Under the pieces are notes generated by a model. The model was given only the letters and a program-made list of their open reading frames with translations, was not told the DNA's origin and searched no databases. A DNA stretch of 46,488 bases from a virus. This document shows positions 9,525 through 42,174 of the stretch, piece by piece. The DNA lies in the IMG/VR virus record IMGVR_UViG_3300028027_000084, positions 1-46,488 of that record; one strand, written 5' to 3'. Position numbers and translations under genes: made by a program. Every line of letters begins with the position of its first letter. Position 1 is the stretch's first letter.

Positions 9525-9540
9525 TAGAAAGTAACACTAT

Positions 9541-14300: not shown

Positions 14301-14526
14301 TTATCTAAATCAATATTGCGGAGTTGATCATTCTAAAGTAACGCCGGAGTTTCTAAACTATCAATATAGTTCATCGTATGATCCAACCGGCTCATTCCTT
14401 GCTCCATATATTACAACAATCGGACTATATCAAGACAATCAACTTGTTGCCGTAGGCAAACTTGGTCGTCCTATAAAAAACCTAATTGATTGGCCGGTCA
14501 ATATTGTTGTCCGTTTTGATACATAA
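11347..14526 (+). CDS. Tail adhesin with seven-repeat FG-GAP propeller and dockerin-like motifs
   Basis: 1059 residues. Seven repeats of the form x-F/Y-G-x-S-V-S/A followed by V-G-x-P/T and an aromatic Y-I/V-Y/F strand start near residues 247, 315, 373, 473, 552, 623 and 705; seven is the number needed for a closed integrin-alpha-type beta propeller. Two calcium-loop segments follow, D-V-N-Q-D-G-V-V-D near 840 and D-I-D-G-D-G-I-I-N near 938, spaced somewhat wider than in a classic dockerin. These lie between E-F-N-Y-S-T-N-P and Y-I-T-T-I-G-L-Y, the two halves of a module that is contiguous in the 368-residue neighbour. Ligand or host-surface binding is inferred. Confidence 0.75.
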   Translation: MIKQFSAGDITVRPFKTFKNWTLQSIDSSSLDAYGYSTYYNGKLEINEGLKLNTIFYPTQSIYFVSGSEPINSSGKYARNIYSVTDAMFYRNANDPLNLFGVEKYMEDPVTGKKEVREIHNRIITANLKHNVWGEKVIPETVKIVDDSNIHQTFDIRDDGYTNLYLTGSHFPGNQRIGGYRNLVSRPYWVSSSGEFYVTFSNGEIQYVNLANAKQYMAMGIPVTYVEPETGSWAWDDSTSRDYFESANEHFGESVSSWGPYVAVGSSMDALSLSTRRTGYVSVFKHDSKKDAHRLVAKINFPFTQSVAGTSSYFEDSFGYSVSLRDNFLAVGSPTGSACSVNLYNGYVCVYDKNKGGPDNWGIINMLKGESNGDKFGNSVAIDNDILAVGAPAYSGSKGAVYIFRKHRYMDSGSCLDIPTGSSWQQVVFASDFCAELATSSLVVTQSYTPTFVSGNYTWTYETVLTSSIQAVGDNFGWSVSVDANRLIVGTNKYGTGYATMFTCSYYSASMNSCPTASWKQIQIFRKDNTTGDLNINGPEYSVDVSSEIITDKFGYSVSTSGKNVVVGCQYDKAYKPYYAYTGSALVLGAAYFYQYGYVADCLDFQYDLKTKTFGDRKYQTNNKFGWSVSIEGSTAAVTSLPDKLTNDIDYSTGSYILENFSYESSGSADSVLGRATIYNYDDNSDAWHITGELRRNKEENSPYNIYGYSVSLGSDYMCVGAPIVNIAAPSSYSQIIDENNQVSSSFPSSYSGSAYIYNMRKYETNPLIGNIFYNNGYFVITNTGSNYQNIFMGTGSRGFEMNYQGAHTIYEHEYLVSVRPGEFNYSTNPSSLVQNPLYFDVNQDGVVDYKDVSLVMRYLQMKKFYAEFVFDENGIVLEPDTLEDYSWWANDIIQTEATDVLQQESDYAAYLASASFDPFTKKAFDYIETNLVNTGILDIDGDGIINLNDGFIFSLYYFGKLNPTKLSNYITAASTRIYVKDIETYLNQYCGVDHSKVTPEFLNYQYSSSYDPTGSFLAPYITTIGLYQDNQLVAVGKLGRPIKNLIDWPVNIVVRFDT

Positions 14527-14529
14527 CAT

Positions 14530-14539
14530 TATATTTATA
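14530..14539 (+). promoter_or_regulatory. Candidate late promoter, TATATTTATA
   Basis: It lies 23 bases before the ATG at 14563, followed by a strong AGGAG ribosome site at 14550-14554. This is the best-formed motif plus leader in the window. Confidence 0.55.
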
Positions 14540-20000: not shown

Positions 20001-20226
20001 TAATATCAGCAATCTACCACGTCCAAACTTCCTTGTTATAGACGAGGGTATGTCGGCTCTTGATGCTTCTAATATGGCAATGGTTCATTCATTATTTGAC
20101 TATATGAAGACTCATTTTGACTTTATCATTGTAATAAGTCACCTTGACGCTATGAGAGACATGGTAGACAAGCAGCTGGAAATCAAGAAAGAAAACGGGT
20201 TTAGTAAGATAGATAATACGGTTTGA
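17020..20226 (+). CDS. Mre11-Rad50 (gp47-gp46, SbcD-SbcC) single-chain fusion
   Basis: 1068 residues uniting two proteins that are separate in T4. The N-terminal nuclease (about 1-350) has D23-x-H25, G-D60-T, G-N95-H96-D97, Y-H171-G and G-D-I-H207. The ATPase begins near 395 with a Walker A-like A425-S-N-A-S-G-K431-S, where the usual first Gly is Ala. Two long coiled coils flank a zinc hook C742-K-F-C745. The ABC signature is S978-G-M-E, Walker B is L-V-I-D1008-E1009, and V-I-S-H-L-D follows. The complex resects DNA ends in recombination-dependent replication. Fusion would enforce 1:1 stoichiometry. The end of the gene is duplicated downstream. Confidence 0.93.
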   Translation: MIDTYEKLNTTLTQVDYIVHLSDVHIRLTQRHQEYREVFSKVYEQIKNTPPNTVVVNTGDTFHSKCDLSPEAVQLASEFLKNCADIRPTIIIPGNHDCLLTNVSRLDSISPVVDNLAHKNLYYLKESKLYSFANLLFNNMSIFEDHTSFIKMKNVSKKIKTEFDIKIALYHGGVFDAKTDIGYTVTNKSIMNDMFDGHDMALLGDIHLAQTLQEYDRVNEKPIIRYASSLLQQNHGEALLGHGFSLWDVKNRAYKHIEIPNDYGYFTIDIDDGKLITDISTMPKKPKLRVRCKETIASEVKKVINEVKKTHEISDIIYMRVDGDDSARVASVQAAANLSQISNVEYQNKLISESLKAKYPDIMDDDTLESVHNINKELNTDLSKDDTSRNIRWKPIKFEFSNMFSYGENNVIDFTKLSDVYGLFASNASGKSSLMDALCFIAFDKSAKAFKATHVMNSQKMSFHGKFTFEINDVQYVIERKGIRDKKNNVKVDVNFYKMEKEEKISLNSEARRSTNEIIRDYIGEYDDFVLTSLALQGNQGSFIEMGQTERKELLSQFIGLNVFDKLAAKGSDRLKEITGAIKTFNKENNQQKIETIKNDLNLLESKLIDSNMQKEQLAINKQKLDDDIQANQIKIVTLENVPTNVAALQKEKSGFAAKNDQAKQSIEKIDADTSEKKKEYADASAKLTTFATDLKEKYEKYNSLSRNKQRMEQEMDKLKTLVNEKLKKLAHLDKHEYDPTCKFCCDNIFVKDAVATRGSLSKDKAEAKELSDALTAIKVEITNLESFVPQYEESVTLKERVNTLAAFLSKKELERSNLANAVEKNNARSVEIDSQIELYEKSKEVIESNKIIEAAISGLRNEATTITARLKNINAEYVDAYSRKVSLTDQLKNIETQLIEIEKYENDQAAYQYYLTSIGKDGVPYKIISDAIPRIEQEVNNILSQIVEFTINIETDGKNVNVYIKYEDRKWPLELCSGMEKFVSALALRVALVNISNLPRPNFLVIDEGMSALDASNMAMVHSLFDYMKTHFDFIIVISHLDAMRDMVDKQLEIKKENGFSKIDNTV

Positions 20227-20539: not shown

Positions 20540-20609
20540 ACAAGCAGTTGGAAATCAAGAAAGAAAACGGGTTTAGTAAGATAGATAATACGGTTTGACC
20601 GATATTTAT
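20537..20609 (+). repeat. 73-bp direct repeat, copy 2
   Basis: This is a vestigial copy of the fusion gene's last codons, stop and downstream ATATTTAT core, offset 372 bp from copy 1 with one mismatch. It has no start codon of its own and forms most of the leader of the 718-residue gene. Confidence 0.97.
20602..20609 (+). promoter_or_regulatory. Candidate late promoter core ATATTTAT (in repeat copy 2)
   Basis: It ends 14 bases before the ATG at 20624. It is the duplicate of the core at 20230, so both genes kept the same upstream element. Confidence 0.45.
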
Positions 20610-20610
20610 A

Positions 20611-20628
20611 GCCATACAGGTGTATGGC
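20611..20628 (+). promoter_or_regulatory. Hairpin masking the start codon of the 718-residue gene
   Basis: GCCATAC (20611-20617) pairs perfectly with GTATGGC (20622-20628) around an AGGT loop. The ATG at 20624-20626 lies in the 3' arm and the only Shine-Dalgarno-like AGG (20618-20620) in the loop. Translational control or a site for an RNA-binding repressor is inferred. Confidence 0.5.
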
Positions 20629-22780
20629 ACAAATAATAGATACAGACCCAAATTCAAACGATTACTTCTTTGTAACCGGCCTTGTTGATAATACCTTCAA
20701 AGCCGGTAAAAATTCGTTTATAATAAATGCCACAGACCTTATTTTGGTTGGAAAACCTGTTACGGTCAATTTTTATGATGCCGACAGAAACAATATCGTT
20801 GTAAGAGAGATTGATCCAGCTAAAGTTGGTGGTATAGAGTTGGCCAAATTTGGAGATGTATATGTAGTAAATATACCAACAACATCTACTGCTGGTATAG
20901 GCAAGTTAGAAGTAAAAGGAACGGGTATAGAAGTTGGAACATATACAGGAAGTATAGCATTTTTTAACAACAAAGCATACCCTGTCAGTAATACGCAACG
21001 CTTGCCACTTATTAAAGCGCCGTCTGTTCCATCCTTTCCAGAAATAAACATTTTGTGGACAAGAAATATACTCATTAACCCCGAATCAAAAACAGAATCG
21101 GAAGTAAGATTTTTTGATTATCCATATATAAATGTTGCTCCAAAAATTTATAATGCTCCAGACTATCCAATAGCATCATATAGAATGGCATCAGGATCAT
21201 GTTCTACTATCGCAGTTGTTCCAAAAAACAATGCAGCACGTCCAACATATACCGCCGATAATCCAATATATCAATTGTATCAATCGTCCGGAGACAAGTT
21301 TACATCATCTATGGAAGGTGAAAAGATTCGTATCAAGAATCCTTATGTCAAAAATTTTACATACGCAAACTTTAGCAATAATCAAATAAAATACGAAGGC
21401 GTATTAAATACAGATTTTATTGCAACAATAGACAGAGTTGTAAATGAAACCACTTTACTTCTTAATATTCCATTTGCAACAGTTTCGGATCTTGTTGATA
21501 GAACCAACGAGGATTCTGTATATAACAGAAACAATCTTGTAGACATAAGTGGTTATACCGTAAACGACGACCCGCAAAAACAAACAACATTCTTCAAGAA
21601 AAACTTTTATGTTTTAAGTATAGCCAAAGCAGATTATGAAATTATTCACAAGTCTATACCAACATTATTATCAGAATCTGTAATAACGGGTAGTGTTATT
21701 GCAAAAAAATCGGTGGTAGATATTGAGTTGAACAACCTACGAGCATACTGCGGAAACATAGCATCATACAAAGTTTATAAGAAAAGTTTAAATAGTCCAG
21801 AATCAAAGACGTTGGTGGTGTCTGGCAAAGTAGAAGCCGACGAACATGTTGTGTCAAATAATTTCAATAATGGGTTATATAACAAAGCTGGATATTTCTT
21901 TGACCAACCACATGTAGATAGATTTTGGTTAAAGAGTGGAAGCCCAACATTTGTTCAAGATGATACTGTGTTAATAGACGGCGTAAGTGTGGGACATTCC
22001 GGAAACTCTGCTCAAACAGATTATGTAATATTTAAAGACGACACCACCGGCGCAGCTCGTTCTACAAGTTATTTAGATTATAATCTAGTAGATAAATCTT
22101 ATTGGTATGCAAAGTCAGATGCATTTTTAAATTCGGCAACTTTACCAACAGCATCATATGACAATATAGCAAATGCACCGGGGCTTTCAGCATATAGCAA
22201 TTCACAAGAAAATTTATTGAGTGGAGCAATTCATGACAGTAATCCAATCAAATTGAGAAAATCTACATTATACAATTTCTCAATGCGAGTTAGACCATCC
22301 TCTGGTAACTCGACCGAATCTAAACTGTATGTGTATTTTATCAGCGGAACATATAAGAAGATGATTGGATTGATTGACTCGACGTTCAAATATCAAACCG
22401 ACGAGTTGTATGAATTCTCTTTCTTCTGCGATGCGGAAAGATATGGAACAATCATATTTGTACCGGTTGTCGGCAATTGGTATATTTCAGCCGTTTCATT
22501 AAAGCCATACGAAAACTTGGATTATTCTATCGACTCGTTTGCTGCAAAAATTCCATTGCCAAACTCTGTGAGAAATGAGTTATTTGAAATAGAAGTCGAG
22601 CTATACGACGAATACGACCGACTGGCATATGGCGAAGGCTCGTATACATTCATACATAACAAAATATTTTCCCCACTTAAAAAACAAATATTCATCGACC
22701 CATTTGGTATTATAACCGTGGCGGGATCTAGTGGCGGTGGTAGCAGTGTTGGTGGAGACATTGACGGCGGAGGAGCATAA
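20624..22780 (+). CDS. Large tail/fibre structural protein
   Basis: 718 residues, beta-rich, with no enzyme motif. The N-terminal ~120 residues look like an immunoglobulin-like sandwich. The centre has a tract with W-T-R-N-I-L-I-N-P-E and the segment F-T-S-S-M-E-G-E-K-I-R-I-K-N-P, of a kind I associate with fibre-region proteins of large phages. Residues about 540-635 (L-R-K-S-T-L-Y-N-F-S-M-R-V-R-P, ending W-Y-I-S-A-V-S-L-K-P) look like a carbohydrate-binding jelly-roll. The C-terminus is Gly/Ser-rich. The stop is followed one base later by the fibre gene's ATG, whose ribosome site lies within this gene's end, so the two are coupled. A host-attachment role is inferred. Confidence 0.65.
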   Translation: MAQIIDTDPNSNDYFFVTGLVDNTFKAGKNSFIINATDLILVGKPVTVNFYDADRNNIVVREIDPAKVGGIELAKFGDVYVVNIPTTSTAGIGKLEVKGTGIEVGTYTGSIAFFNNKAYPVSNTQRLPLIKAPSVPSFPEINILWTRNILINPESKTESEVRFFDYPYINVAPKIYNAPDYPIASYRMASGSCSTIAVVPKNNAARPTYTADNPIYQLYQSSGDKFTSSMEGEKIRIKNPYVKNFTYANFSNNQIKYEGVLNTDFIATIDRVVNETTLLLNIPFATVSDLVDRTNEDSVYNRNNLVDISGYTVNDDPQKQTTFFKKNFYVLSIAKADYEIIHKSIPTLLSESVITGSVIAKKSVVDIELNNLRAYCGNIASYKVYKKSLNSPESKTLVVSGKVEADEHVVSNNFNNGLYNKAGYFFDQPHVDRFWLKSGSPTFVQDDTVLIDGVSVGHSGNSAQTDYVIFKDDTTGAARSTSYLDYNLVDKSYWYAKSDAFLNSATLPTASYDNIANAPGLSAYSNSQENLLSGAIHDSNPIKLRKSTLYNFSMRVRPSSGNSTESKLYVYFISGTYKKMIGLIDSTFKYQTDELYEFSFFCDAERYGTIIFVPVVGNWYISAVSLKPYENLDYSIDSFAAKIPLPNSVRNELFEIEVELYDEYDRLAYGEGSYTFIHNKIFSPLKKQIFIDPFGIITVAGSSGGGSSVGGDIDGGGA

Positions 22781-22781: not shown

Positions 22782-25688
22782 ATGGCAAAAATACAAATAA
22801 GACGCGATACATCAACGAGATGGTCAAATGTAAATCCGATATTGTCATCTGGCGAATTCGGTTACGAGACAGACACAGGTAAATTAAAAATTGGTAATGG
22901 GTTGACTAGTTGGAATTCAGCGAGTTATTTTTCAACAGCCATAATTTCAGGCTCTGGTGATTTTACAGCCGCTTCGTCATCTTTAGCAAGTAGAATTGAA
23001 ACGGTGAGTGCGGCTAATATTGCTGCATCGGCGTCGATTGCTTCAAATTTAAATACAATACAAGGAGCGTCAACCGCAGTGTCGGCAGCATTGGCACACA
23101 ATGTTGTAGAAGTACAAAACTACGCAATTGCTGCGTCGTCTTCTATTTCTCAAAATCTTACAACTCTTGTATCGGGTCTTAATTCAACATCTTCATCATT
23201 GGCATCGGCTTTGGCTGAAAATTCTCGTTCGTTTTCTTCAAGTCTTTCAAGTTTTAGCCAAACTGTTTCTCAAAACTCGGCGTCATCTGCTGCATATATA
23301 AGTTCAATCTACGGTACGGTTACAAGTACATCATCTTCACTTGCCGCAACGGTCACTACACTTGGAACATCTATAACAAACGCCAGTTCGTCATTAGCCA
23401 GTAGTATAAGTTCAACAAATATATCTTTCACCAATAATAGTTCTTCTATGGCTGGTAGGTTTGAAACAATAACTTCTGGATTTAATTCTGCAAGTTCTTC
23501 ACTCGCTGCCTCTATTACAACAAATTATGAAACTTTTGTAAACGCAAGCTCATCTATTGCTGGAAAAGTTGAAACAATATCAACTTCGGTTACAACTAAC
23601 TCAGCTTCGTTGGCGTCTTCTATCACACATGTAGAAGGATCGGTTACAACATATAGTTCTTCGGCAGCAACAACGATGACTGGACTTTCTTCAAGAATAG
23701 ATAATAGTAGTGCATCATTGGCTGCGTCAATTACAACGACGCAAACTACATCAGTGAACTTTTCATCTTCGTTTGCTGGTAGAATTGATGTGTTACAATC
23801 GAGTTTCACCACATCAGGCTCGGCGGAAGTAATTGCTGCGGCTGCGTCAATCATCGAATCACAAGCGGCATTTGCAAATCAAAGTGCCTCGATTGCATTG
23901 GACATAAAAACAATTAGTTCGTCGCTATCTAATGCGTCAGCCTCGTTGAGTTCTGCTATAATTGAATTAAATGGTACAGTTACTACCAACAGTTCATCTG
24001 CCGCAACTAAGATGGACGGACTACAATCTTCTTTTAATACCAACAGTTCGTCGTTAGCTGCAAGTATAACGACTGTTAATGGTACTTTAACCACCGCATC
24101 ATCTTCTTTGGCCGGAAGAGTCGATGTAATGAATTCAAATATAGTAAACAACAGTGCTTCTTTAGGATCTTCTATTGCAGACACACGAAGTACATTAACC
24201 ACAACAAGCTCATCTATAGCCTCCGATGTGCGTACTTTAAATGCGGCATATCAAGGTGCATCGGCATCTCTTGCTGCCAATATTATTTCATTGAGTGGAA
24301 CAATTGTAACAAACAGCTCATCCGCCGCTATTATAATGGACAGGCTTGACAGTTCAATAACAAATAACAGTTCATCATTGGCTTCAAGTATAACCGACGT
24401 TAGTAATACAGCAACGAATGCGTCATCTTCTCTCGCTACAAGAGTATCAACACTTTCTTCTTCGGTAGGTTCTGCAAGCTCATCTCTCGCAGCAAGCATA
24501 ACAACAACCGCAACAACACTTGCCACAGTTTCTGGAAGTGTTGCTAATATTTCTGGTGAATATGGCGTAGTTGTAAATGCTGGCAAAATTACAGGATTCA
24601 AGGCACTATCCAGTCCAACAACATCTGAATTTATTGTACAGGCTGACAAGTTTCAAATTGTAAATAGTTCCGGTGGCAGCAGCAAAGCACCATTCATCGT
24701 TGAAGGTGGAGTAACATATATTGATGGTGCCGTTATTAAAAATCTTGATGCGGGTAAAATAACCGCTGGTACAATTACGGCATCTATAACAATCACGTCT
24801 CCAAAAATAACAGGTGGCGGCATAACAATAGACTCATCTATTGGCATGAGATATAAAGACGACAGTGGAGTATTTACTATAACTGGTGGAAGTGACAATG
24901 CTACCGGTGGCCAAATTGACTTGGTAGGAAACAGTTTTCCAGATGCTCGTGCCGGTATTGTTCAAATTATTGCCGGTAATGTAGGAACTGGTCATGTATT
25001 ATTAAAAACGGGCGGCGATAACATTCGATTAAAGGTTGATCATGATGGATGGATTGGAGTAAGCGAAGATATAAGAAGAATATCAAATAATGGATATACG
25101 CCAAATTTATACGATGGTGACAATTATATCAGTTTCGGATGGATAGACGGAGAGCTGAAAGCGAATATAGATAATGGTGCAGCCGTATTTGCGGTTGGTG
25201 GTGGTGGCGGTAGCGACACAAGCGGAACCAGTGGAACCAGCGGTTCGTCGGGAACATCGGGTTCTAGCGGCACGAGTGGCTATAACGGTAGTGATGGTGG
25301 ACCTGGTGCTGATGGTACAAGTGGCACTAGCGGCTATAACGGCAACGATGGCACATCCGGCACGAGTGGTTACAACGGCAGTGATGGTGGACCTGGCGCG
25401 GATGGCACAAGTGGCACTAGCGGCTATAACGGCAACGATGGCACATCCGGCACGAGTGGCTATAACGGTAGTGACGGTGGACCTGGTGCCGATGGTACAA
25501 GTGGCACGAGTGGTGAAAGCGGTTCGCCGGGCGGAGATGGTACCAGTGGCACAAGTGGCACCGACGGAGCTAAAGGCGATCCCGGCAGTATTTCGTCACC
25601 GACCGATATAACAAGTAATGGATATGACAGTGGAGCAAATCAAAGATTAGTTCATTATAATGGAACTTTATATTGGGAAACCTTCTAA
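22782..25688 (+). CDS. Tail fibre: N-terminal anchor, 18-residue-repeat stalk, J-like domain, collagen-like tract
   Basis: 968 residues. The start is the ATG after GGAGGA in the end of the previous gene; an upstream in-frame ATG at 22731 would need a long overlap. Residues 1-50 (I-Q-I-R-R-D-T, G-E-F-G-Y-E-T-D-T-G-K-L-K-I-G-N-G) match the anchor domain opening many phage fibres and major tropism determinants. Residues 66-584 are a stalk of 18-residue repeats. Then follows a region like the straight-fibre domain of lambda J-type proteins (S-E-F-I-V-Q-A-D-K-F with P-F-I-V-E-G-G). Residues 815-934 are 40 uninterrupted G-x-y triplets, and a short aromatic tip ends the protein. It is the likely receptor-contact fibre. 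Confidence 0.85.
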   Translation: MAKIQIRRDTSTRWSNVNPILSSGEFGYETDTGKLKIGNGLTSWNSASYFSTAIISGSGDFTAASSSLASRIETVSAANIAASASIASNLNTIQGASTAVSAALAHNVVEVQNYAIAASSSISQNLTTLVSGLNSTSSSLASALAENSRSFSSSLSSFSQTVSQNSASSAAYISSIYGTVTSTSSSLAATVTTLGTSITNASSSLASSISSTNISFTNNSSSMAGRFETITSGFNSASSSLAASITTNYETFVNASSSIAGKVETISTSVTTNSASLASSITHVEGSVTTYSSSAATTMTGLSSRIDNSSASLAASITTTQTTSVNFSSSFAGRIDVLQSSFTTSGSAEVIAAAASIIESQAAFANQSASIALDIKTISSSLSNASASLSSAIIELNGTVTTNSSSAATKMDGLQSSFNTNSSSLAASITTVNGTLTTASSSLAGRVDVMNSNIVNNSASLGSSIADTRSTLTTTSSSIASDVRTLNAAYQGASASLAANIISLSGTIVTNSSSAAIIMDRLDSSITNNSSSLASSITDVSNTATNASSSLATRVSTLSSSVGSASSSLAASITTTATTLATVSGSVANISGEYGVVVNAGKITGFKALSSPTTSEFIVQADKFQIVNSSGGSSKAPFIVEGGVTYIDGAVIKNLDAGKITAGTITASITITSPKITGGGITIDSSIGMRYKDDSGVFTITGGSDNATGGQIDLVGNSFPDARAGIVQIIAGNVGTGHVLLKTGGDNIRLKVDHDGWIGVSEDIRRISNNGYTPNLYDGDNYISFGWIDGELKANIDNGAAVFAVGGGGGSDTSGTSGTSGSSGTSGSSGTSGYNGSDGGPGADGTSGTSGYNGNDGTSGTSGYNGSDGGPGADGTSGTSGYNGNDGTSGTSGYNGSDGGPGADGTSGTSGESGSPGGDGTSGTSGTDGAKGDPGSISSPTDITSNGYDSGANQRLVHYNGTLYWETF
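22977..24533 (+). repeat. 54-bp-period protein repeat (fibre stalk)
   Basis: The encoded stalk has 24 units of exactly 18 residues with the pattern (S/A)-S-L-A-x-x-h near the start and a small-residue end, interrupted twice by irregular segments of 47 and 40 residues. DNA identity between units is modest, so this is an old protein-level repeat, not a recent tandem array. Confidence 0.85.
25224..25583 (+). repeat. Collagen-like triplet repeat with 90-bp tandem units
   Basis: 40 consecutive Gly-x-y codon triplets, rich in GTS, GYN and GSD. Two adjacent 90-bp units (25314-25403 and 25404-25493) encode the same 30 residues with few base changes, and a half unit precedes them. Copy-number change by recombination is likely. 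Confidence 0.88.
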
Positions 25689-25721
25689 TAAAATTTTTAT
25701 ATCTATATTTAAAAATATAGC

Positions 25722-25749
25722 TTGACAAATACATTAATGGTTATATCTT
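25722..25749 (+). promoter_or_regulatory. Sigma70-like promoter before the glycosylation genes
   Basis: TTGACA at 25722-25727 is followed after 16 bases by TATCTT (25744-25749), just upstream of the ATG at 25761. The -35 is perfect and the -10 moderate. No ATATTTAT core is present in this gap. Confidence 0.5.
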
Positions 25750-25760
25750 AACAAAAGTTT

Positions 25761-28322
25761 ATGAAAATTTTATATATTGCTCCGCATTTATCTACGGGTG
25801 GCTGTCCTCAATTTCTCTTAAAGAAAATACAAGTTTTATATAGTGAGCATGAAATACACTGTGTAGAATACTCAAACCACGGAGGTTTTACGGTTCAAAG
25901 AAATCAAGTTAAAAACTTGCTAGGAGATAGATTTTATGAACTAACAGGAGATCGGTCTGATTTATTTGATATTATTGAAAAAATAAATCCGGAAGTTATA
26001 CATCTTGAAGAAATGCCAGAGTATTTCATGGATGCCAAGATTACTCGTAGATTATATAAAAAAGATAGAAAATATAAAATCATTGAAACTTCTCACGACA
26101 GCAGTTTTGACCCAGCAAACAAAGTAGTATTTCCAGATAAAGTTATTCTTGTTAGTGAATATCAAAGACAAAATCTAAAGTCACTTCCCGTTCCATTAGA
26201 AGTATGTGAGTATCCAGTATTGATTAAGCCACGCAAGCCGCGTGAAGAAGCACTTAAAGTACTTGGATTAAATCCAAACAAGAAACACGTTGTTCACGTT
26301 GGATTATTTACTCCACGCAAGAACCAAAAAGAAATCATAGAGTATGCTCGTATGATGCAAGATTATCCTATTCAGTTTCACTTTATCGGAAATCAAGCCG
26401 ACAATTTTAAGTTTTATTGGGAACCTTTGATGAAAGATTTTCCAGCAAACTGCAAATGGTGGAATGAACGCAAAGACGTTGATAATTTTTATCAAGCCGC
26501 CGACTTATTTTTGTTCGTGTCAAAAGACGAAGATGGTAATAAAGAAACCAGCCCACTTGTTATTCGTGAAGCCGTTTCATTTAATGTACCTACTCTCATA
26601 TATAACTCACCTGTTTATATGAACATGTATAACAAATACAACAACATCAAATATCTTGATTTTAACGACAAACAAGCAAACTGCAACAAAATTTTAAAAA
26701 CTGTAAATTTACTATCTGAAACGCCTATGACAAACTTCAATGTACAATATGATAAAACGAGCAACAAGGTTACTTTTAGCTCTTCAAGAAAAATAGACAA
26801 TGCTCTAATATCTGTAAAAGAATTGGATTCGCGTACTGTTATGTGGGCGGTAAAATATCCAGAGTTCCCAGCCAATTGCAACTATTGGATTATTCCTTGC
26901 AGAAAAGAAGTTATTGATTTTGAAACCGACCCATTTATTGGAGGACTTCTTGTTGAACTTTATGAAAACGATGTGTTGGTAGGATCAAAGTCTATCCGCA
27001 TCAAACCGGAAGTATATAACAAGATGCAATCGAAGTTGAAGAATAACTTTGAGCCAACGTATATCAATTATACAGAATTCTTCGTAGATAGAATTTATGA
27101 CAAGTATCTAAAAGGTAAGACATTTGATACGGTTGTTGACGTTGGTGCCAATATCGGTCTATGGACGGAATATATCATGCATTCTACAAACTGCAAAAAG
27201 GTATTCTCGGTAGAACCAAACACAGAAGCATTAAAGGTACTAAAGAATTCTTTTGATAGTAAAGTCACGGTTGTTGAAAAAGCGATGGCAAATAAAGACG
27301 GTGAACTTGAATTCTTTGTTGACGCAAACAATTCTACCATATCATCAGTTGCTGAGTTTGATGGTCGTAGTAATATAACATACAAAGTCGGAGCTATATC
27401 GTTCAAGTCCTTTTTATCTCAATATTTGTATAGCACAGAAAAGATTGATTTGTTCAAGGTTGATATTGAAACGGGTGAATATGATCTGTTTGAATCATTC
27501 GACGAATCCGATTTTGCCAGAATCAACAACATGCTCGTTGAGTTTCATGTAATGGGCGGCAGAACATATGAAAAAGATGCTACAAATCTTATCAATATGA
27601 TAAAGAAAGCCGGTTTCTTTGTTTACGCGAATAGCATTCACAAACACGGCGGATTCTTGTTTGCAACCAGAGAAGAAATGAAAGAAGACAAACGCAATGC
27701 TGAAATGACAGCGTTGCTTAATACTCGCACATGTCCAGACAAGCGCGATTTAGCTTCTCTTGTAAATGAACTATTTCCAAGCGGCAAGGGTGTTGAAATC
27801 GGCGTATTAAACGGCGAATATTCCAAGATTATTTTGGAACGTTGGGAAAATGGTCAACTATTCATGGTCGATGCATGGAGACATCTCGATGGTTATATTG
27901 ACATGAACGGTCAAGATGACAAATATCACCACGAATGCTTAGTAAAAGCGTGTCAAAATACAAAGCAATGGGAAAACAGAGCACATATCATCAGAATGGA
28001 TAGTGTTGCTTCTGCAAATATGTTCCCAGATGAATATTTTGACTTTGTGTATATTGACGCCGACCATTCATACGAAGGAGTCGTTCGTGATATGAAAGCC
28101 TGGTGGCCAAAGGTAAAGAAGGGTGGATTGTTCTGTGGCGATGATTATATCCCACAAGATGGTGATATCTGGATGACGGTTGCTGGCAAAGAACCTGTAT
28201 ATGCTGGTAAGTTCGGCGTTCGTAAAGCTGTGAATGAGTTTATGGAAAAGAACGGACTTAAAGTATATGAAACTACCAGCGAGTCATACTGGAAACAATG
28301 GTACTCCTTTAAACCTTTTTAA
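25761..28322 (+). CDS. Glycosyltransferase GT4 / FkbM methyltransferase / class I methyltransferase fusion
   Basis: 853 residues in three parts. Residues 1-320 are a GT-B glycosyltransferase like family 4, with H-V-G-L-F-T-P-R-K-N-Q and an E-T-S-P-L-V-I-R-E-A motif (E-x7-E, nucleotide-sugar binding). A beta module (about 325-425) follows. Residues about 440-640 are an FkbM-type SAM methyltransferase (V-V-D-V-G-A-N-I-G-L-W; L-F-K-V-D-I-E-T-G-E). Residues about 650-853 are a second SAM methyltransferase (V-E-I-G-V-L-N-G-E-Y; V-Y-I-D-A-D-H-S-Y-E-G). It probably adds and O-methylates sugars. It lies directly after the fibre gene; substrate unknown. Confidence 0.82.
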   Translation: MKILYIAPHLSTGGCPQFLLKKIQVLYSEHEIHCVEYSNHGGFTVQRNQVKNLLGDRFYELTGDRSDLFDIIEKINPEVIHLEEMPEYFMDAKITRRLYKKDRKYKIIETSHDSSFDPANKVVFPDKVILVSEYQRQNLKSLPVPLEVCEYPVLIKPRKPREEALKVLGLNPNKKHVVHVGLFTPRKNQKEIIEYARMMQDYPIQFHFIGNQADNFKFYWEPLMKDFPANCKWWNERKDVDNFYQAADLFLFVSKDEDGNKETSPLVIREAVSFNVPTLIYNSPVYMNMYNKYNNIKYLDFNDKQANCNKILKTVNLLSETPMTNFNVQYDKTSNKVTFSSSRKIDNALISVKELDSRTVMWAVKYPEFPANCNYWIIPCRKEVIDFETDPFIGGLLVELYENDVLVGSKSIRIKPEVYNKMQSKLKNNFEPTYINYTEFFVDRIYDKYLKGKTFDTVVDVGANIGLWTEYIMHSTNCKKVFSVEPNTEALKVLKNSFDSKVTVVEKAMANKDGELEFFVDANNSTISSVAEFDGRSNITYKVGAISFKSFLSQYLYSTEKIDLFKVDIETGEYDLFESFDESDFARINNMLVEFHVMGGRTYEKDATNLINMIKKAGFFVYANSIHKHGGFLFATREEMKEDKRNAEMTALLNTRTCPDKRDLASLVNELFPSGKGVEIGVLNGEYSKIILERWENGQLFMVDAWRHLDGYIDMNGQDDKYHHECLVKACQNTKQWENRAHIIRMDSVASANMFPDEYFDFVYIDADHSYEGVVRDMKAWWPKVKKGGLFCGDDYIPQDGDIWMTVAGKEPVYAGKFGVRKAVNEFMEKNGLKVYETTSESYWKQWYSFKPF

Positions 28323-28331
28323 TATATTTTT

Positions 28332-29150
28332 ATGATACTATTTTTATATAGCGACAAGAATTGTGAACATCAAGCGATGGCTTGCATCAAATCATTGACC
28401 CACAAAATAACAGACGATGTAAAGATTGTATATTATACAATTGGCTTCGACAGTAGTTTTGAGTTCAAGAACTTATACAAAGTAAAATTGGATTATAAGC
28501 CACAATATCCAACTTTCCATTTCTATAAAGCGGAGTTGTCTTTGCTTACAATGCAGATGTTTCCGAATGAGTATTATATGTTCACGGACACTGACGTATT
28601 GTTCTCTCGCAATTTTAATTTCAATGACCACAAATATAACGAGTCATATCCTATGGCAAGTTATGGACCACATGAATATCCATTCATTTGGCAAGAAGTC
28701 AACGGCGTTAAGATTATATTCAACGAAAAGAAGCTAATGACATATCATGGATTGGAAAATAGAAGTATGAGATACTGCTGGTCTTGCTTTTATGCTTTCA
28801 ATCCAAACTGCAAAGAGTTCTTTGAAGAGTATACTTCAATCTGTCAAAATAGATATTTACTTGATCGTCGCAAAGATTATTTTCCATATGCCGACGAAAC
28901 TGCATTTAATGTATGCTTGTGGAAACGCGGTGCAAACAAGAATCTAAAACAAGCATTTGTAAATACACATCTATTAGAAACTGTTAAAGTGGTTGAAGAA
29001 CGCAAAGCCAAAAATACAGTATTCATGAACAACGTGGACGCATTTGGTTCAAGTTGGGAAGCGGTGGAAGATCCAGACCAAGTATTGTTATATCACGGAT
29101 TCAAAGAAAAAGTAGAAATGAATAAAACCGTTGATTATCTGCTGGCATGA
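28332..29150 (+). CDS. GT-A-type glycosyltransferase
   Basis: 272 residues. F-T-D-T-D-V-L-F near residue 85 is a D-x-D metal/nucleotide-sugar site in the usual place after a hydrophobic strand, and Y-A-D-E-T-A-F-N near 195 is an acidic acceptor-site motif typical of GT8/GT77-like enzymes. The N-terminal L-F-L-Y-S-D-K-N and the A-C-I-K-S-L helix fit a GT-A fold. The family is not certain. It overlaps the following FkbM gene by ATGA, so it is part of the same operon. Confidence 0.65.
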   Translation: MILFLYSDKNCEHQAMACIKSLTHKITDDVKIVYYTIGFDSSFEFKNLYKVKLDYKPQYPTFHFYKAELSLLTMQMFPNEYYMFTDTDVLFSRNFNFNDHKYNESYPMASYGPHEYPFIWQEVNGVKIIFNEKKLMTYHGLENRSMRYCWSCFYAFNPNCKEFFEEYTSICQNRYLLDRRKDYFPYADETAFNVCLWKRGANKNLKQAFVNTHLLETVKVVEERKAKNTVFMNNVDAFGSSWEAVEDPDQVLLYHGFKEKVEMNKTVDYLLA

Positions 29151-30061
29151 AACCGTTTGATGTATTTTTAGATAAAGCCAATTTAGTGGTATATCTAAAC
29201 CACAAACTGGATACTGCGGAGAAATACACAATTTCTGTCAATGACTTATTTGTTGACTGTGTATATTTTATATGGCCGCAGAACACTGCCCCAAAGGACA
29301 GACTTTGGGTTCAGCCTCTTTCACATAAAATAAATGCATTTACAAAAAACAATCCAAATTTTTCCGGTTTTATTGTAAAAATATACAACAAAGATATGCG
29401 TCTCGTTCAGGTTGAGAAGCTAATAGTAAATAAAACCGCTAAACGATTTACTACCACATTTGATTCTGGTCAATTTGATGCAACCGGTCCATCATATGCG
29501 GACTTCTTCTTTGGTGATTTGTGCAAAAATATAGACGTTTCCGGAACGGTTGTTGACGCAGGTGCCAATGTTGGGTTCTTTACATTATATGCTAAATACT
29601 ATGGAGCTAAACGGATATACAGTATAGATCCAGATCCACTACCATTCTTTTATTTAGAAAAGAATTTTGGTCAAGACCCTAGCATAACTTTATTAAATAA
29701 AGGAATGAATGTTTCGGACGATGGTATGGATATAAATTTATCCACCATTGCCTCTGTGGGTACGGGAGAATTTTTAACAGAGGCAAACTCCGTCAAACTA
29801 CATATACCCACTATATCTATAGATTCTATATTGAAAATAGAAGATACTATAAATTTGTTAAAGCTTGATATTGAAGGAACGGAGTTTAAAGTAATAGAAA
29901 ATCTAAATGAAAAGCATTTTGGCAAGATAAACCAATTTTTTATAGAATTTCACTTTAATCCAAAACCAATTGCTAAAAAACTAATAGAAAATGGATACAA
30001 AGTAGAATACAGAGATTCCGATGAAAATAGTAACGTTGGGTTTATATACGCTGTGAAATGA
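29147..30061 (+). CDS. FkbM-family SAM methyltransferase
   Basis: 304 residues. The N-terminal ~100 residues are a beta module resembling the linker of the 853-residue protein (opening F-D-V-F-L-D-K-A-N-L-V-V, then a W-x-Q-P-L strand). The methyltransferase core has V-V-D-A-G-A-N-V-G-F-F (motif I), Y-S-I-D-P-D-P (motif II acid) and L-L-K-L-D-I-E-G-T-E, all characteristic of FkbM O-methyltransferases that modify sugars or glycolipids. It is ATGA-coupled at both ends. The base composition is more AT-rich than the flanking structural genes by eye, which could mean later acquisition. Confidence 0.83.
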   Translation: MKPFDVFLDKANLVVYLNHKLDTAEKYTISVNDLFVDCVYFIWPQNTAPKDRLWVQPLSHKINAFTKNNPNFSGFIVKIYNKDMRLVQVEKLIVNKTAKRFTTTFDSGQFDATGPSYADFFFGDLCKNIDVSGTVVDAGANVGFFTLYAKYYGAKRIYSIDPDPLPFFYLEKNFGQDPSITLLNKGMNVSDDGMDINLSTIASVGTGEFLTEANSVKLHIPTISIDSILKIEDTINLLKLDIEGTEFKVIENLNEKHFGKINQFFIEFHFNPKPIAKKLIENGYKVEYRDSDENSNVGFIYAVK

Positions 30062-31038
30062 AAAAGCAATTATTGATAGTTGGTTCATATCCATCCGAGC
30101 AAGAAACAGAAAAAGTTTTACAATCCGTTTTGGAACGAGTAAATAATGACTTTGATATTTTGTTGGTGACACATTGTCCAGTCAGCAAAGAAATACAAAA
30201 TATGGTTAAATATTTTATATACGATTGTCGCAACGAGTTTATACCATCAAATCCAAATGTCAATTTTTACGCGGATTATCCCAAGTTCTTTTTTAGAATA
30301 TATCAAACCTCAAATCATAAAAATCACAGTCATGCAGTGTTTCGTTCTATAATGAACGCGATTAATTTTGCAAAAGATTCGTATGATTCATTTGTTTATA
30401 TAGAAGGTGACTGTTTATTTTCAAAAGAGGATGTTGAAAAGTTAAAAAATCTAAAAAATATATCTGAGACTAACAATAAAAAAGCTCTGTTTTTTAAATT
30501 TGATTATGTGTTTGTTTCGACAATATTTTATTCGTCAATTGAATTTTTTAAAAATGCATTTAAATTTTCAACTTCTCCCGATGAATATATAAATAACTGT
30601 AAAGAAGTTGGGGCATATGGAACGCTAGAAAGTTTCTTATATAAAAGCGTTGAGCACAAAAAATTATTTGGGGACGTTCATATGCTTGAAAATATTGGAA
30701 TTGAAACATATTTTAAAACGAGTAAGCATGGTATGAATATTTTTGTAGACGGAGAAACTGTGGTTGATTCTGCTGCGGTTTCCACGGTTGTAAAAATAGA
30801 AAATACTCAAGAGATTGCATTTGTTTATCTAAACAAAAATGTAGGAGTAGAGGAGTCCAACATATACGTCGATGATGTTTTTTACGAAACCATACCTGCA
30901 AATTATGCTGTAAGAGCATTTAAAATAAACCCAGCAAAAAATGAATTTGTTGTTCGAGTCGGCAATAGGAAATTATTAAAATTCAAAAAAGATAGTATAC
31001 TTGACCCAAAAAATAAAAATTTTGTAAGATTTAAATAA
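30058..31038 (+). CDS. Putative glycosyltransferase with C-terminal beta module
   Basis: 326 residues. The opening Q-L-L-I-V-G-S-Y-P-S-E and the strand F-V-Y-I-E-G-D-C-L-F near 115 resemble a GT-A core with an E-x-D in place of D-x-D. Residues about 225-326 form a beta-rich tail with Y-L-N-K-N-V and N-I-Y-V-D-D. No clear family is recognised, and the assignment leans on its place in an ATGA-coupled series of sugar genes. The gene is strikingly AT-rich. A nucleotidyl or glycan-binding role is possible instead. Confidence 0.5.
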   Translation: MKKQLLIVGSYPSEQETEKVLQSVLERVNNDFDILLVTHCPVSKEIQNMVKYFIYDCRNEFIPSNPNVNFYADYPKFFFRIYQTSNHKNHSHAVFRSIMNAINFAKDSYDSFVYIEGDCLFSKEDVEKLKNLKNISETNNKKALFFKFDYVFVSTIFYSSIEFFKNAFKFSTSPDEYINNCKEVGAYGTLESFLYKSVEHKKLFGDVHMLENIGIETYFKTSKHGMNIFVDGETVVDSAAVSTVVKIENTQEIAFVYLNKNVGVEESNIYVDDVFYETIPANYAVRAFKINPAKNEFVVRVGNRKLLKFKKDSILDPKNKNFVRFK

Positions 31039-31043
31039 AATAC

Positions 31044-31072
31044 TTGACATCAATCAAAAATTTAAATATATA
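31044..31072 (+). promoter_or_regulatory. Sigma70-like promoter, TTGACA-17-TATATA
   Basis: A perfect -35 (31044-31049) is followed by 17 bases and TATATA (31067-31072), 39 bases before the ATG at 31112. A second overlapping pair, CTGACA near 31075 and GATAAT near 31090, has short spacing and is weaker. This is the best host-type promoter in the window. Confidence 0.62.
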
Positions 31073-31111
31073 CACTGACACTAATGCGGGATAATACAAT
31101 TTAAAATAATC

Positions 31112-33502
31112 ATGAAAATAATCAATATCAATCCAGGTCTTATATCAATTCCACCAAATGGGTGGGGTGCAGTAGAGAAAATTATTTGGGATTATCATCT
31201 TGAATTGACCAAGCAAAAAGTCCAAAGTGAGATTTTATATCTTAATGATGTAAAATACGACGACAGTATGGTTGTTCATGTACATGTCGCCAACTTGGCA
31301 ATCATGTGCCATGAGCGCGGCATTCCTTATATATTCAGTATTCATGACCATCATGCATATCTATTTGGTAAAGACTCACATTGTTTTAAACAAAATCTAA
31401 AGGCAATTGAACACAGCGTATTTTCATTGTCACCATGCAAGTTCCTTGTTGATTATTTCGGCAGCAAGAAGCTTCGTTATTTTTCCCACGCCGTTAATAC
31501 CAACACCTTTGTAAATAAAAATTATAATGTAGAAGGTACCAAGTTATTGTGCGTAGCAAATAATGGTTATGCCGACAATCAATCCAAGGACAGAAAAGGA
31601 TTTAAGATTGCTATACAAGCAGCTATGGCTCTTGATTTGCCATTAACGATTGCGGGTCCAAGCAACAACAAGAAATTTTTTGATACACTTGAGCCAGAGT
31701 TTAACAACTATAGTAAGCTCACCAAGCTATTTGATTTGAACGAAGCCGAATTGATTGAGTTGTATAATAACCACAGCATCTTTTTACATTTTTCGGAATT
31801 AGAGGCTGGTCATCCAAACTTGACACTACTCGAAGCTATGAGTTGTGGATTGCCTGTTGTTGGCACGTTTGAACAAAAGACATACAACGGCATGATTGTG
31901 ACCGAGCGGGATGTAAGTCAAGCCACTTCTGCTATTAGTAAAATAATGATAGATTACAAGAAATATAAACAAGCTGCTTTAGATGCGGCTAGTGCAAACT
32001 CATATTCTGCCAGAGTGTTAGAATTAGCTGGACTATACAGTGAATATAGAGAAAAGATATTTGGTAATCAATTGATTGATAGCTATAATGAATGTAAGCA
32101 AGTTTATATTGAACCAAAGAACACTATAAGAATATCGCACGAGAAAAATGGTACAAAAGTAACCATCGGCGGCTTGAATGAAATCAAATATAAAGTAAAG
32201 TTTGTTGATTATAGCAACAATCATGTAACATACGAATGCCCTATCACCATTGGCATGTGGACAATGTGCCCATCTAAATACAAGAACGATTGGGGTGTTG
32301 AAGTTTATGATATTACAAATGGTACAGAAGTATTAGTTGAAAAGAATAAATTTCCAGCAAATGAAACTGTGTCTAAATCTATCACGCCAGAAAAGAATAA
32401 AATCAAAATTACTTTTGATGACGGTGCCAAGGTTGATATAAAAGGTGATGAAGCAAAAAAGTATAAAGTAAAGTTCATTGATGCATATACCAATCAAGTA
32501 ACTTACGAAACCACGCTTAACAATAATATGTGGGCAACAACTGCTACAAAATACTATAATAAATGGTTGGTTGAAGTATATGATATTACAGACGGTGGCG
32601 AAACACTTGTAGAAAAACACTCTTTTGATGCCAAAGACAAAACTGTAAAAATAGTATTAGATAGTGAAAGCTTTGGCGACTTGATTGCTTGGATTGGTGC
32701 AATTGATGAATTCCAAAAGAAACATCAATGCAAACTTGATTGCGTAGTATTCAATAAGGTATTAAGACCAATATTTGAAAAGAACTATCCAAACATCAAG
32801 TTCCTAGCAACGGATGTATATGCCGACCCATATTATGCCAAGTATAAGATTGGATATTTTGCAGCTCCAAACTATGTTAATCATATAACCAAAGATCCAA
32901 GACTACTAGGACTATGTGCTATTGCCACAACCATTCTTGGTTTGACCGACGTTGAGTTTAAGCCAAATTTTGCCGTTGAACCACACAAGTCAAAAAAGAA
33001 ATATGTTTGTATAGCTACACAAAGCACGTCCCAAGCAAAGTATTGGAACAACAAAAAGGGTTGGGATGAAGTCGTTGGTTACTTAAACAAGAGTGGCTAT
33101 GAAGTATGGTGTATCGACAAGTTCAGCAGCTTTGGTGTCAAAGAAAGTATGAACTATATGCCAAAAGGATGTATCGACAAAACGGGCAATCTTTCGTTTG
33201 AAGAAAGAATGTCTCAACTCAAGGGTGCCGAATTCTTTATTGGATTAAGTTCCGGCTTATCATGGCTTGCTTGGGGCGTTGGCGTTCCTGTTGTATTGAT
33301 TAGCGGGTTTACAGCCAAATGGAATGAATTCTATACTCCATACAGAGTCATGAATGAAACTGTGTGTAATAGTTGCTGGAATGATGTATCTTGCCCATTT
33401 AACAAGGGAGATTGGTTCTGGTGTCCACGTAATAAGGACTTTGAATGCTCCAAACAGATTACATCCTCTATGGTTATTGAGCATATCAAAAAGCTTATAT
33501 AA
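31112..33502 (+). CDS. GT4 glycosyltransferase fused to an autotransporter-heptosyltransferase-like domain
   Basis: 796 residues. Residues 1-320 are a GT4 enzyme (E-L-E-A-G-H-P-N-L-T-L-L-E: E-x7-E). Residues about 335-525 hold two copies of a beta module (K-V-K-F-V-D-Y and K-V-K-F-I-D-A, each ending V-E-V-Y-D-I-T). Residues about 525-796 resemble the Aah/TibC autotransporter heptosyltransferases: S-F-G-D-L-I-A-W, G-L-S-S-G-L-S-W-L-A, and a Cys-rich end with C-N-S-C-W-N-D, C-P-F, W-C-P and E-C-S-K, as in the TibC iron-binding finger. Family members O-glycosylate repetitive adhesins with heptose. The acceptor here is unknown; the Ser-rich fibre upstream is a candidate. Confidence 0.82.
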   Translation: MKIININPGLISIPPNGWGAVEKIIWDYHLELTKQKVQSEILYLNDVKYDDSMVVHVHVANLAIMCHERGIPYIFSIHDHHAYLFGKDSHCFKQNLKAIEHSVFSLSPCKFLVDYFGSKKLRYFSHAVNTNTFVNKNYNVEGTKLLCVANNGYADNQSKDRKGFKIAIQAAMALDLPLTIAGPSNNKKFFDTLEPEFNNYSKLTKLFDLNEAELIELYNNHSIFLHFSELEAGHPNLTLLEAMSCGLPVVGTFEQKTYNGMIVTERDVSQATSAISKIMIDYKKYKQAALDAASANSYSARVLELAGLYSEYREKIFGNQLIDSYNECKQVYIEPKNTIRISHEKNGTKVTIGGLNEIKYKVKFVDYSNNHVTYECPITIGMWTMCPSKYKNDWGVEVYDITNGTEVLVEKNKFPANETVSKSITPEKNKIKITFDDGAKVDIKGDEAKKYKVKFIDAYTNQVTYETTLNNNMWATTATKYYNKWLVEVYDITDGGETLVEKHSFDAKDKTVKIVLDSESFGDLIAWIGAIDEFQKKHQCKLDCVVFNKVLRPIFEKNYPNIKFLATDVYADPYYAKYKIGYFAAPNYVNHITKDPRLLGLCAIATTILGLTDVEFKPNFAVEPHKSKKKYVCIATQSTSQAKYWNNKKGWDEVVGYLNKSGYEVWCIDKFSSFGVKESMNYMPKGCIDKTGNLSFEERMSQLKGAEFFIGLSSGLSWLAWGVGVPVVLISGFTAKWNEFYTPYRVMNETVCNSCWNDVSCPFNKGDWFWCPRNKDFECSKQITSSMVIEHIKKLI

Positions 33503-33537: not shown

Positions 33538-36500
33538 ATGGATATCTCGATCAAGAACCTCAAAAAGTATATTTTTGAACCAAAAACCGAGGCTCTGCGC
33601 TTAAACAGAGCCAAGGATATATTGTCTCAAGACTTGGTTATTACCGAGAAAGTTGACGGCACCAAGCTAACATTAGTTAGAACAGAACAAACAGACGCCG
33701 CCGATTATACCAAGAATTGGGTAGTAGCATATAAAGGAACGGTATTATATGCCAAAGAGTTTGCTCATTTGGGCGATAAAGAAAAGGGCGATATATCTCA
33801 ATCTTCTGTTGGTATAGGTCAATATTCTATGATATTTGATCATCTAAAGAAAATCAATGGTAAGATTGGCAGCATTCCAAAAAGCACAGAGTTTAGCGTA
33901 GAGTTTGCTCAAAACAAAGATACACTTACTCGCACATATGTAAACAAAGGTGGACTGTTTTTAAGAAGCTATGGCAAGGTTGTATATAGAATTATCGACG
34001 GCAACCTTCATACAAGTGTACAAGGTGAAGAAGTAACCGAATATACTCAAGTCAAGAAAATGGCAGATCTACTTGAAATATCAGCATTTCCTATATTCTT
34101 TCAAGGTAAGCTATCCAAAGAAAATCTATTAAAGAACTCATTGATTAATTCCAAACTAACAAATGTTGATTGGAATAATCCACTTGATGTTATTAGTAAG
34201 TTCTCCGACGCTATTTTAGCAGTTCCATCTACACTAGGTGGTACAACCGAGGGTGTTGTATTAAAATTGGCTAATGGTGAGTTCTTTAAACTTGTACAAG
34301 CGGACCAATATGACGCAGAAGTTCGTGGTGCAAAGAAAGAAATGTATAAACTCGATCCAGAAGCTGCCGCAGCATACTTCCAACAAATCAGAGCACTTAT
34401 CCAAAATATTTTTGATGCAGTTGGTACTGAAGGAAAATCTGAAGAAGATGTTATTTCAGATTCTAATTTTTATATTGCCAAGAATGAAAAGAAGCTAAAG
34501 AAGTTTTTTGACTCATTACAAGCGATTGCGGGCAATAAAAAGAACCTTGTTCAAATCAAAGACGACATCCACGATACGGTTAGATTGCTTGTATCTAAAC
34601 GTAGATTGCTTGGTTCAACTGCCAAAACACTTGCTCTTATTCCAATTGCCGGTAAGCCATTGCATATAGGTCACTGGAAGCTAATAGAAAAAGCAGCATC
34701 TGAAAATGATGCCGTAGTTGTTTATACATCATCGTCTGATAGAATAAAGAAGGGCGAGTTTCCAATCAAGGGTGATGACTTTGTTCGTTTATGGAGTGAT
34801 GTATTCATTCCAGCGTTGCCAAAGAATGTTAGAGTAAAGTTTGTAGATTCACCAGTGCGTGCTGTTATGCATGAAATCGCGTGGCTTGAACAAACAACGG
34901 TACAAGACAATGCTAAAGTACCAGTCATAAATTTATACTCAGACAAAGACGACGTTGAAACCAATTTCAAAGACGAAGACTTGAAAAAGTATCCATCGCT
35001 TTTGGCAGCGGGTAAGATAAAAAAAGTTGGCGTTGAAAGAACCGCTACAGTAAATGTAAGTGGTACAAAGATGCGCGAGTTCTTGTTGAATAATGATAAA
35101 ACATCATTCTTAAAATATTTGCCACCCGTATCTGCGCGTGACAAAGAAGAAATTTGGAATACTCTAATCAAAAACAAGCCAGAGGTAAATGAAACTAATC
35201 CATATTCAAAGTTTGCCGAAGAAGTTGTAAATGAAATAGACAAAGAAATGTTTAGCGAAGGTGGTTGGAGATCTACTTCCACACAATCAACGATTATAAC
35301 TCCAAAGAAAGTTGAAACAATATTAAGTGCGATGGACAAGTTTGTATTAGAATTTAATTCATATTCAAATCTTCCTCCTATAGAATCTAATGGTCCAGTT
35401 GGTTCGGCGATGTATTATAAACAAGATTTGGAAAAAGATGATGTGAAGTATGGCGATATAGATATTCAAATCGTATTACCAGAAGAAAGTAATGATAGAA
35501 CATCTCAACTAGCATCTAACAAAAAGTATTCAGACAAGATTCGTCAGTTCATTCAAGAAAAGAAACCAAGTTATATCTATCCAAACTTTCAAGATAAAGA
35601 CTTTGGTACAGGATATTTGATATTCAACGTTGGTGGTGAAAACATCCAAGTTGATTTAGTTTTGTCATATAAAGTGTCTGCCGAATGGACAAAAATTAGA
35701 ACAACTCCAGAAAAAGGACTAAAAGGATTTGTTACAGGAACTTTATTAAGCGCACTATCAGATGCTCTTAATGTTGTATTAGGATCAAACACTAATCCGT
35801 ATGTAAATACAGTAGATGGTAAAGTTGTATCATCTTTAATCAAAACAAACGCAAAGCCCGTGTTCTTTAGCCCAAATCAAGTATTCTTGGATATATTAAA
35901 GTTCTATAGCAATCTTGCGGGCGTTCAAAAAGCAAACCCGTCAGCATTACAAGGCTATTATGGATTGGACGCAAACGATCCATCGTTGAAGAAGAAATGC
36001 GAAGCCGTGGTTGCTTTAAGTAAAGCACTAGATAATAACAGAGCATTTGATAAAGGAGTTATTGTATCAAAGGGCGGAATAACATTTAAATCTCGCGAAG
36101 AATTTGTAAAATATGTACTAGATACATTCATAAAGAATATGGAATCTGCTAGTACAGCAAAAAAATTAGAAAAAGCAGAAACACCAGAAGCTATGAAAAA
36201 CATTGAAAAAATAAAACACGACGCTAATCTTGGTATAGAATTGGCAAAGCAACTAATCAGAGAAGAAATTGCACTGTTGAACGAGTCTGGTCAATCGGTT
36301 GCTGCTGTAGATGACAAAACTCCAAAGACAGTAAATGGTCAACCGGCTCAAGCAACAACCAAGTTAAAAATCATAGACCAATCTGGTAAAGATATTCGCA
36401 GTTCTGTTTCAGCCGATGTAAAAGAGTTGGTATATGCACTAAACAGCAAGGTTGGTTTTTGGAAGAAAAACAATCCATATATTGAAAATGGATTTGTATT

Positions 36501-40170: not shown

Positions 40171-40178
40171 ATATTTAT
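40171..40178 (+). promoter_or_regulatory. Candidate late promoter core ATATTTAT before portal
   Basis: The core lies 30 bases before the ATG at 40209, the longest spacing among motif sites that lie directly before a gene. Confidence 0.45.
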
Positions 40179-40208
40179 ATATTACGCCCTCATATATATA
40201 CATTACTT

Positions 40209-42159: not shown

Positions 42160-42174
42160 AAATAATAAAACTGT

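Follow-up and report, generated by a model that had tools for sequence, protein, structure and literature searches.

The window analysed here (IMG/VR record IMGVR_UViG_3300028027_000084, positions 1 to 46,488; 46,488 bp in all) is a metagenomic fragment of a T4-like myovirus, as seen from its gp25, gp6, primase, fused SbcD/SbcC, terL and portal genes. Its subject of interest is a tail fibre gene with a collagen-like tract, followed by five genes that appear to form a protein glycosylation cassette; the last of these encodes a BAHT (Aah/TibC-type O-heptosyltransferase) domain. The terminase of the window comes closest to that of Microcystis phage Mel-JY01, at 54%, with Flavobacterium phage immuto next at 50%; megablast of the window against phage records gave no match. 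Relatives of the locus were collected from 66 viral loci; BAHT open reading frames (ORFs) overall number 112, in 32 clusters. The features of the locus, with GT standing for glycosyltransferase, are:

20603..20610, +, putative late-promoter sequence ahead of tspA, TATTTATA (TATTTAT conservation)
20624..22780, +, tspA, 718-aa putative virion protein, in one unit with the fibre gene that follows after 1 bp
22782..25688, +, tail fibre, 968 aa (Pfam Mtd_N, Phage_Tail_Tip and Collagen; tail PHROGs)
22974..24548, +, Ser/Thr-rich stalk of 18-residue helical repeats, fibre residues 65-589 (periodicity, hydropathy)
25224..25586, +, collagen-like tract of 40 G-X-Y triplets, 16 of them GTS (Gly-Thr-Ser), proposed acceptor (triplet count, tandem repeat)
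25722..25749, +, putative sigma70-type cassette promoter, TTGACA ... TATATC/TATCTT (motif, conservation)
25761..28322, +, GT4, beta-domain, FkbM and Methyltransf_24, 853 aa (Pfam/NCBIfam family matches)
28332..29150, +, 272-aa protein with invariant DTD motif, putative GT-A
29147..30061, +, beta-domain and FkbM methyltransferase, 304 aa (family match; beta-domain related to that of 25761-28322)
30058..31038, +, GT-A-fold glycosyltransferase with C-terminal beta-domain, 326 aa (AlphaFold2 model, Foldseek)
31041..31094, +, C-terminal remnant (LTSIKNLNIYTDTNAG, then stop) of a 318-aa gene kept in relatives (by-eye comparison with the end of ORF 9043-9999 of locus L005)
31112..33502, +, GT4, tandem-duplicated beta-domain and BAHT domain, 796 aa (TIGR04414, TibC, residues)

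The fibre ORF starts at an ATG preceded by a GGAGG-like site and encodes, from N to C terminus, an Mtd_N-type N-terminus, the Ser-rich stalk, a Phage_Tail_Tip domain, the G-X-Y tract and a short C-terminal tip. A first-pass annotation had read this protein as an 18-residue-repeat Ser-rich stalk with a Thr/Ser-rich collagen-like tract, and both elements were confirmed. The stalk (27% Ser, 13% Thr) has periods of 18 (z 9.7) and 36 residues (z 14.4) when scored against shuffles, and its hydropathy period of 3.61 indicates alpha-helix; it is predicted to form a helical coil. The tract is uninterrupted, with 40 of 40 triplets fitting G-X-Y and 5 Pro among its 121 aa. It is encoded by a 90-bp tandem repeat and matches Pfam Collagen at 45 bits (cut-off 27).

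The same annotation had assigned GT4, GT-A, FkbM, class I methyltransferase and Aah/TibC-like functions to the five cassette genes. This content stands, including a GT-A fold for 30058-31038, except that the GT-A label of 28332-29150 is unproven: that protein matched nothing in any library and shows only the invariant DTD motif. The 30058-31038 protein also lacked sequence matches, and a PDB sequence search with both proteins found none; its AlphaFold2 model (pLDDT 77), however, matched GT-A enzymes (glycogenin, TarP) in Foldseek at E about 1e-5. Among the beta-domains, the two associated with FkbM match each other, as do the two copies within the BAHT protein (50% identical, profile probability 98.6). 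Only these specific pairs match, and a common ancestry of all cassette beta-domains with the TibC barrel was rejected. The remnant at 31041-31094, lying between two cassette genes, is a scar of gene swapping within the island; a TTGACA before the BAHT gene falls inside this coding remnant of a displaced gene and was rejected as a promoter. The cassette proteins have no clear transmembrane segments and so look soluble, and neither family matches nor the transmembrane check revealed a membrane protein, acyl carrier, lipid-carrier, flippase or polymerase gene in the cassette.

The 31112-33502 protein matches TIGR04414 (hepto_Aah_TibC) with 377 bits and E 8e-113, well beyond the curated cut-off of 200, and aligns to TibC (4rap) at E 4e-74; TibC is also the top fold match of its AlphaFold2 model (pLDDT 80), with GT4 enzymes next. 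It shares with Aah/TibC the GT-B fold, N-terminal beta-barrel, catalytic Asp, ADP-heptose residues and four-Cys iron finger. Functional residues for comparison were taken from the TibC structure paper (PMC4358343), in which D110 is the catalytic base and R286 contacts adenine. All 63 phage BAHTs compared have the equivalents of D110, T226, K230, W305 and the four iron-finger Cys, and 59 of the 63 keep that of R286. Stereoselectivity for the heptose is set by one position, P300 in TibC and Ser in AAH (PMC4358343); because the window has Ser here, its enzyme may accept both ADP-heptoses. The window BAHT would probably transfer heptose from ADP-heptose to Ser/Thr.

The phage enzymes nevertheless differ from Aah/TibC in several ways. 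The window BAHT is fused to GT4, with lengths of 705-796 aa across most of its clade, whereas the bacterial relatives are stand-alone proteins of 400-565 aa, and the phage BAHTs split from the TibC/bacterial clade with support 1.0. The hydrophobic beta-hairpin thumb tip F265/V266, required for the TibC dodecamer (PMC4358343), is not kept: the window has E/S and phages mostly polar residues, while position 266 is V in 15 of 24 bacterial sequences in a gappy alignment. Within a second phage clade, R286 is replaced by Thr in many phages, so the donor may differ there. The strand-loop-strand (SLS, TIGR04415) acceptor repeats occur in 13 of 14 bacterial BAHT genomes and in 0 of 29 phage records. 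SLS repeats were accordingly rejected as the phage acceptor, and we file the protein as BAHT-like, with an acceptor of another kind, rather than as an autotransporter heptosyltransferase. Some relatives, L121 (8663-9589) and L128, have a second BAHT copy that is shorter (about 300 aa) and lacks the N-terminal barrel. An open-access literature search, which did not extend to subscription papers, found no phage BAHT.

A BAHT that retains all key residues, soluble enzymes and the lack of a lipid-carrier or flippase gene give good support to reading the five genes as a protein O-glycosylation cassette. Soluble enzymes and the lack of an encoded lipid-carrier step would fit direct cytoplasmic transfer onto protein. 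That the enzymes instead act on the DNA of the phage, in the manner of T4 glucosyltransferases, might be suspected of a T4-like phage carrying several GTs, and phage GTs hypermodify DNA elsewhere (a reference in PMC12619734). This is highly improbable, since BAHT-type enzymes use protein Ser and FkbM partners act on sugars. No homologue of T4 alpha- or beta-glucosyltransferase was found in Pfam, PHROGs and NCBIfam scans of the window, nor any DNA-hypermodification gene among window ORFs with family matches, although no dedicated search was made.

It is the GTS collagen-like tract, not the Ser-rich stalk, that tracks BAHT, and many phages unrelated to one another have both. Among T4-like records of at least 30 kb, GTSGTSG-coding DNA was present in 24 of 37 BAHT-positive records and in none of 7 assessable BAHT-negative ones (Fisher 0.002); for records of at least 50 kb the counts were 18/22 and 0/6 (Fisher 0.0006). 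The BAHT-negative records lie in about five separate places of a terL tree. For a reverse test, IMG/VR contigs of at least 40 kb were selected solely for coding three GTS triplets, with controls selected likewise for GPAGPAGPAG or GSTGSTGSTG. Among the matches listed, BAHT was present in 15 of 31 GTS contigs (14 above cut-off) and 0 of 31 controls (p=6e-6). A stricter set of these matches gave 14/26 for coding GTS and 0/16 for controls with a real G-X-Y tract (p=2e-4). The base rate of BAHT matches in isolate-type phage records (INPHARED) is 4 in 50,697.

The two elements are also linked. Linkage was examined in 14 of the BAHT contigs from the GTS selection, which were read essentially throughout; 11 of these 14, among the matches listed, have a GTS frame within 10 kb of BAHT (expected 3.5, P=2e-5). 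The genes for BAHT, GT4-FkbM and a GTS/collagen fibre adjoin in the 735-kb phage LR756501, and three consecutive genes of cultured Mel-JY01 encode a GTS fibre, a structural protein of 508 aa and BAHT. Contig G111 shares the order of the window on a single strand (fibre, GT4-FkbM, one gene, BAHT), and L094-L096 have the same fibre-cassette neighbourhood. The Mel-JY01 fibre frame (L071, PP395634.1 1-3052; L866) is at least 1016 aa long and open at the record start, which seems to cut the gene; it is partly annotated as minus-strand hypothetical genes.

We consider O-glycosylation of the phage's own collagen-like GTS fibres by a new BAHT branch to be the best explanation of these patterns, with a probability of roughly 0.6. 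Several observations weigh against it. Eight of the 14 linkage contigs fall within one BAHT clade (60-75% identity among many members), and G114 and G122 are closely related, so that the records are not independent, and the contigs are fragments; counted by lineage, about 4 of 7 are linked, which is suggestive but not decisive. About half of the GTS contigs among the matches listed lack BAHT, and 13 of the 37 BAHT-positive T4-like records, many of them fragments, lack the GTS motif. The acceptor motif within the GTS tract is putative, and collagen-like helices are unlike the beta-helix that TibC binds. GTS genes in the clade of the window are often 14-30 kb from the cassette, and the gene immediately upstream of the cassette in 14 lineages is tspA in 5, o37517 in 5, SbcCD in 2 and a fibre in 2. 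Finally, fibre and cassette seem to be separate units, because the fibre sits 1 bp after tspA, which has a late-type element, and the cassette appears to have its own TTGACA-type, host-like promoter. Separate promoters bear on the refutation test of the first-pass annotation, early-only expression of the cassette, without settling it, because an enzyme produced early could still modify a protein made late.

Both promoter assignments are based on conservation. TATTTAT occurs 20-60 bp upstream of virion genes in 7/7 tspA, 20/27 portal, 15/15 o42175 and 15/17 o45106 non-redundant upstream regions (chance about 0.2-2.4). TTGACA/G with a TATAAT-like element lies 34-39 bp before the GT4-FkbM start in 10 of 18 non-redundant upstream regions (expected 0.6), the L026 match among these ten being likely chance. 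TATTTAT(A) sites in the window, conserved across the clade, are at 427-434, 3289-3296, 14532-14539, 20603-20610, 40172-40179 and 42153-42160; the element is a probable late promoter, in reversed orientation relative to T4 TATAAATA.

A host-type promoter apart from the late-type elements is compatible with early expression, and hence with a cassette that remodels host surface glycans (lipopolysaccharide [LPS] core, capsule or surface protein) and so excludes competing phages. GT9, GT4 and FkbM enzymes work in LPS pathways as well, and the gene content of the cassette is hypervariable, as in O-antigen loci. The enzyme, however, groups with BAHT rather than with LPS heptosyltransferases (TIGR02193, 19.5 bits) and retains the Cys finger by which TibC binds its protein acceptor; the absence of membrane, acyl carrier, flippase and polymerase genes also tells against host-surface remodelling, which leaves the GTS-fibre linkage unexplained. 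We regard it as improbable.

The cassette core of the T4-like clade, GT4-FkbM and GT4-BAHT, is conserved, while GT2, FkbM, Methyltransf_24, DegT-type aminotransferase, hexapeptide acetyltransferase, transketolase-like and zinc-dehydrogenase genes are swapped freely between the core genes. Transketolase-like and zinc alcohol dehydrogenase genes are found in the sister islands of L121 (5769-8708) and L094 (6733-7458), where they may serve to make unusual sugars. The first-pass annotation had drawn on the adjacency of fibre and cassette for its proposal of fibre glycosylation, but close relatives do not conserve it, tspA or o37517 being the usual upstream gene. In L085, L086 and L088 tspA is directly joined to o37517 and the cassette is absent. 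The synteny of tspA and fibre, with a cassette in a variable slot, would by itself yield the arrangement in the window, which thus proves little alone; with a fibre upstream in just 2 of 14 lineages, adjacency was rejected as evidence for the clade of the window. The order in L142/G049 is tspA, a 2199-aa Ser-rich coil fibre, one 950-aa gene and o37517, with no BAHT across the 97-kb contig, and the Ser-rich stalk is accordingly disfavoured as acceptor. The proposal of fibre glycosylation is supported in part and indirectly, its weight now lying on the GTS collagen-like tract and the co-occurrence and linkage of that tract with BAHT instead of on the Ser-rich stalk and simple adjacency.

The position of tspA as a conserved cassette neighbour in five lineages bears on another explanation, namely that other virion proteins (tspA, baseplate, capsid or tail tube) receive the glycans and that the GTS-fibre link only reflects a shared virion-surface module. 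In mycobacteriophages the subunits that bear glycans are those of capsid and tail tube (Freeman 2023, cited in PMC12619734). Yet tspA holds the same place in the cassette-less relatives, and no structural gene besides the GTS tracts was found to track BAHT, although other genes were not tested systematically. We think this explanation unlikely, if somewhat less so than remodelling of the host surface. In relative G058 (L415/L416) tspA continues into a very long run of GTS repeats (3096 aa, 67 motifs), a fusion that ties tspA to the GTS fibre in a single adhesive unit.

Returning to glycosylation of the GTS fibres, we infer the acceptor, donor sugar, order of reactions and biological role (stability, shielding or receptor tuning) as follows. 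The BAHT half of the 31112-33502 protein would add the first sugar, probably heptose from host ADP-heptose, to Thr/Ser of collagen-like GTS tracts; in the window phage this would be the one at the end of the neighbouring fibre. Extension of the glycan would fall to both GT4 enzymes, the fused one and the other, and to the GT-A enzyme or enzymes, and the FkbM and class I methyltransferases would finish it with O-methyl caps ahead of virion assembly. A collagen-like fibre that is poor in proline and coated in glycans would result, and gene swapping would change its sugar structure fast. From what is generally known of collagens, the few prolines here make it attractive to suppose that Thr glycosylation stabilises the tract; shielding or tuning of receptor binding, with sugars that vary fast, is an equally good possibility. 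More broadly, and at slightly less than even odds, a separate viral BAHT branch, joined to GT4 and moving between phages of unrelated kinds, very large ones included, may have exchanged the beta-helix adhesins of bacteria for collagen-like GTS triple helices as its acceptor, so that methylated O-glycans coat, and perhaps stabilise, proline-poor phage collagens.

Phage-encoded glycosyltransferases have been proposed to modify the mycobacteriophage virion (Freeman et al. 2023, via PMC12619734); there the glycans are on the C-termini of capsid and tail-tube subunits, and the portion of PMC12619734 consulted mentions no BAHT or collagen-like acceptor. Sugars on a collagen-like region are known from BclA of the Bacillus exosporium, which bears anthrose-containing oligosaccharides, and from mimivirus L230, which forms glucosyl-hydroxylysine, with collagen-like L71 (PMC9614988), but these systems use other enzymes and other chemistry. 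If our interpretation is correct, phages glycosylate their own collagen-like fibres using an enzyme class known from bacterial adhesins, and the GTS-rich fibres and GT/FkbM genes accumulating in large aquatic phages acquire a function. The combination of GTS tract and BAHT would then be a sequence rule predicting glycosylated phage virions, and the enzyme-substrate pair could be tested in E. coli or in cultured Mel-JY01.

Elsewhere in the window, the SbcD-like (gp47) and SbcC-like (gp46) nuclease subunits form a single 1068-aa ORF (17020-20226; PHROGs 100 and 77), and a 1059-aa protein on the baseplate side (11347-14526) has six FG-GAP_2 repeats and a dockerin/EF-hand-like motif. Downstream of BAHT, a 1306-aa fusion (33538-37458) with weak matches to RNA-ligase and nucleotidyltransferase (NadR-like) travels among relatives both with and without the glycan cassette.
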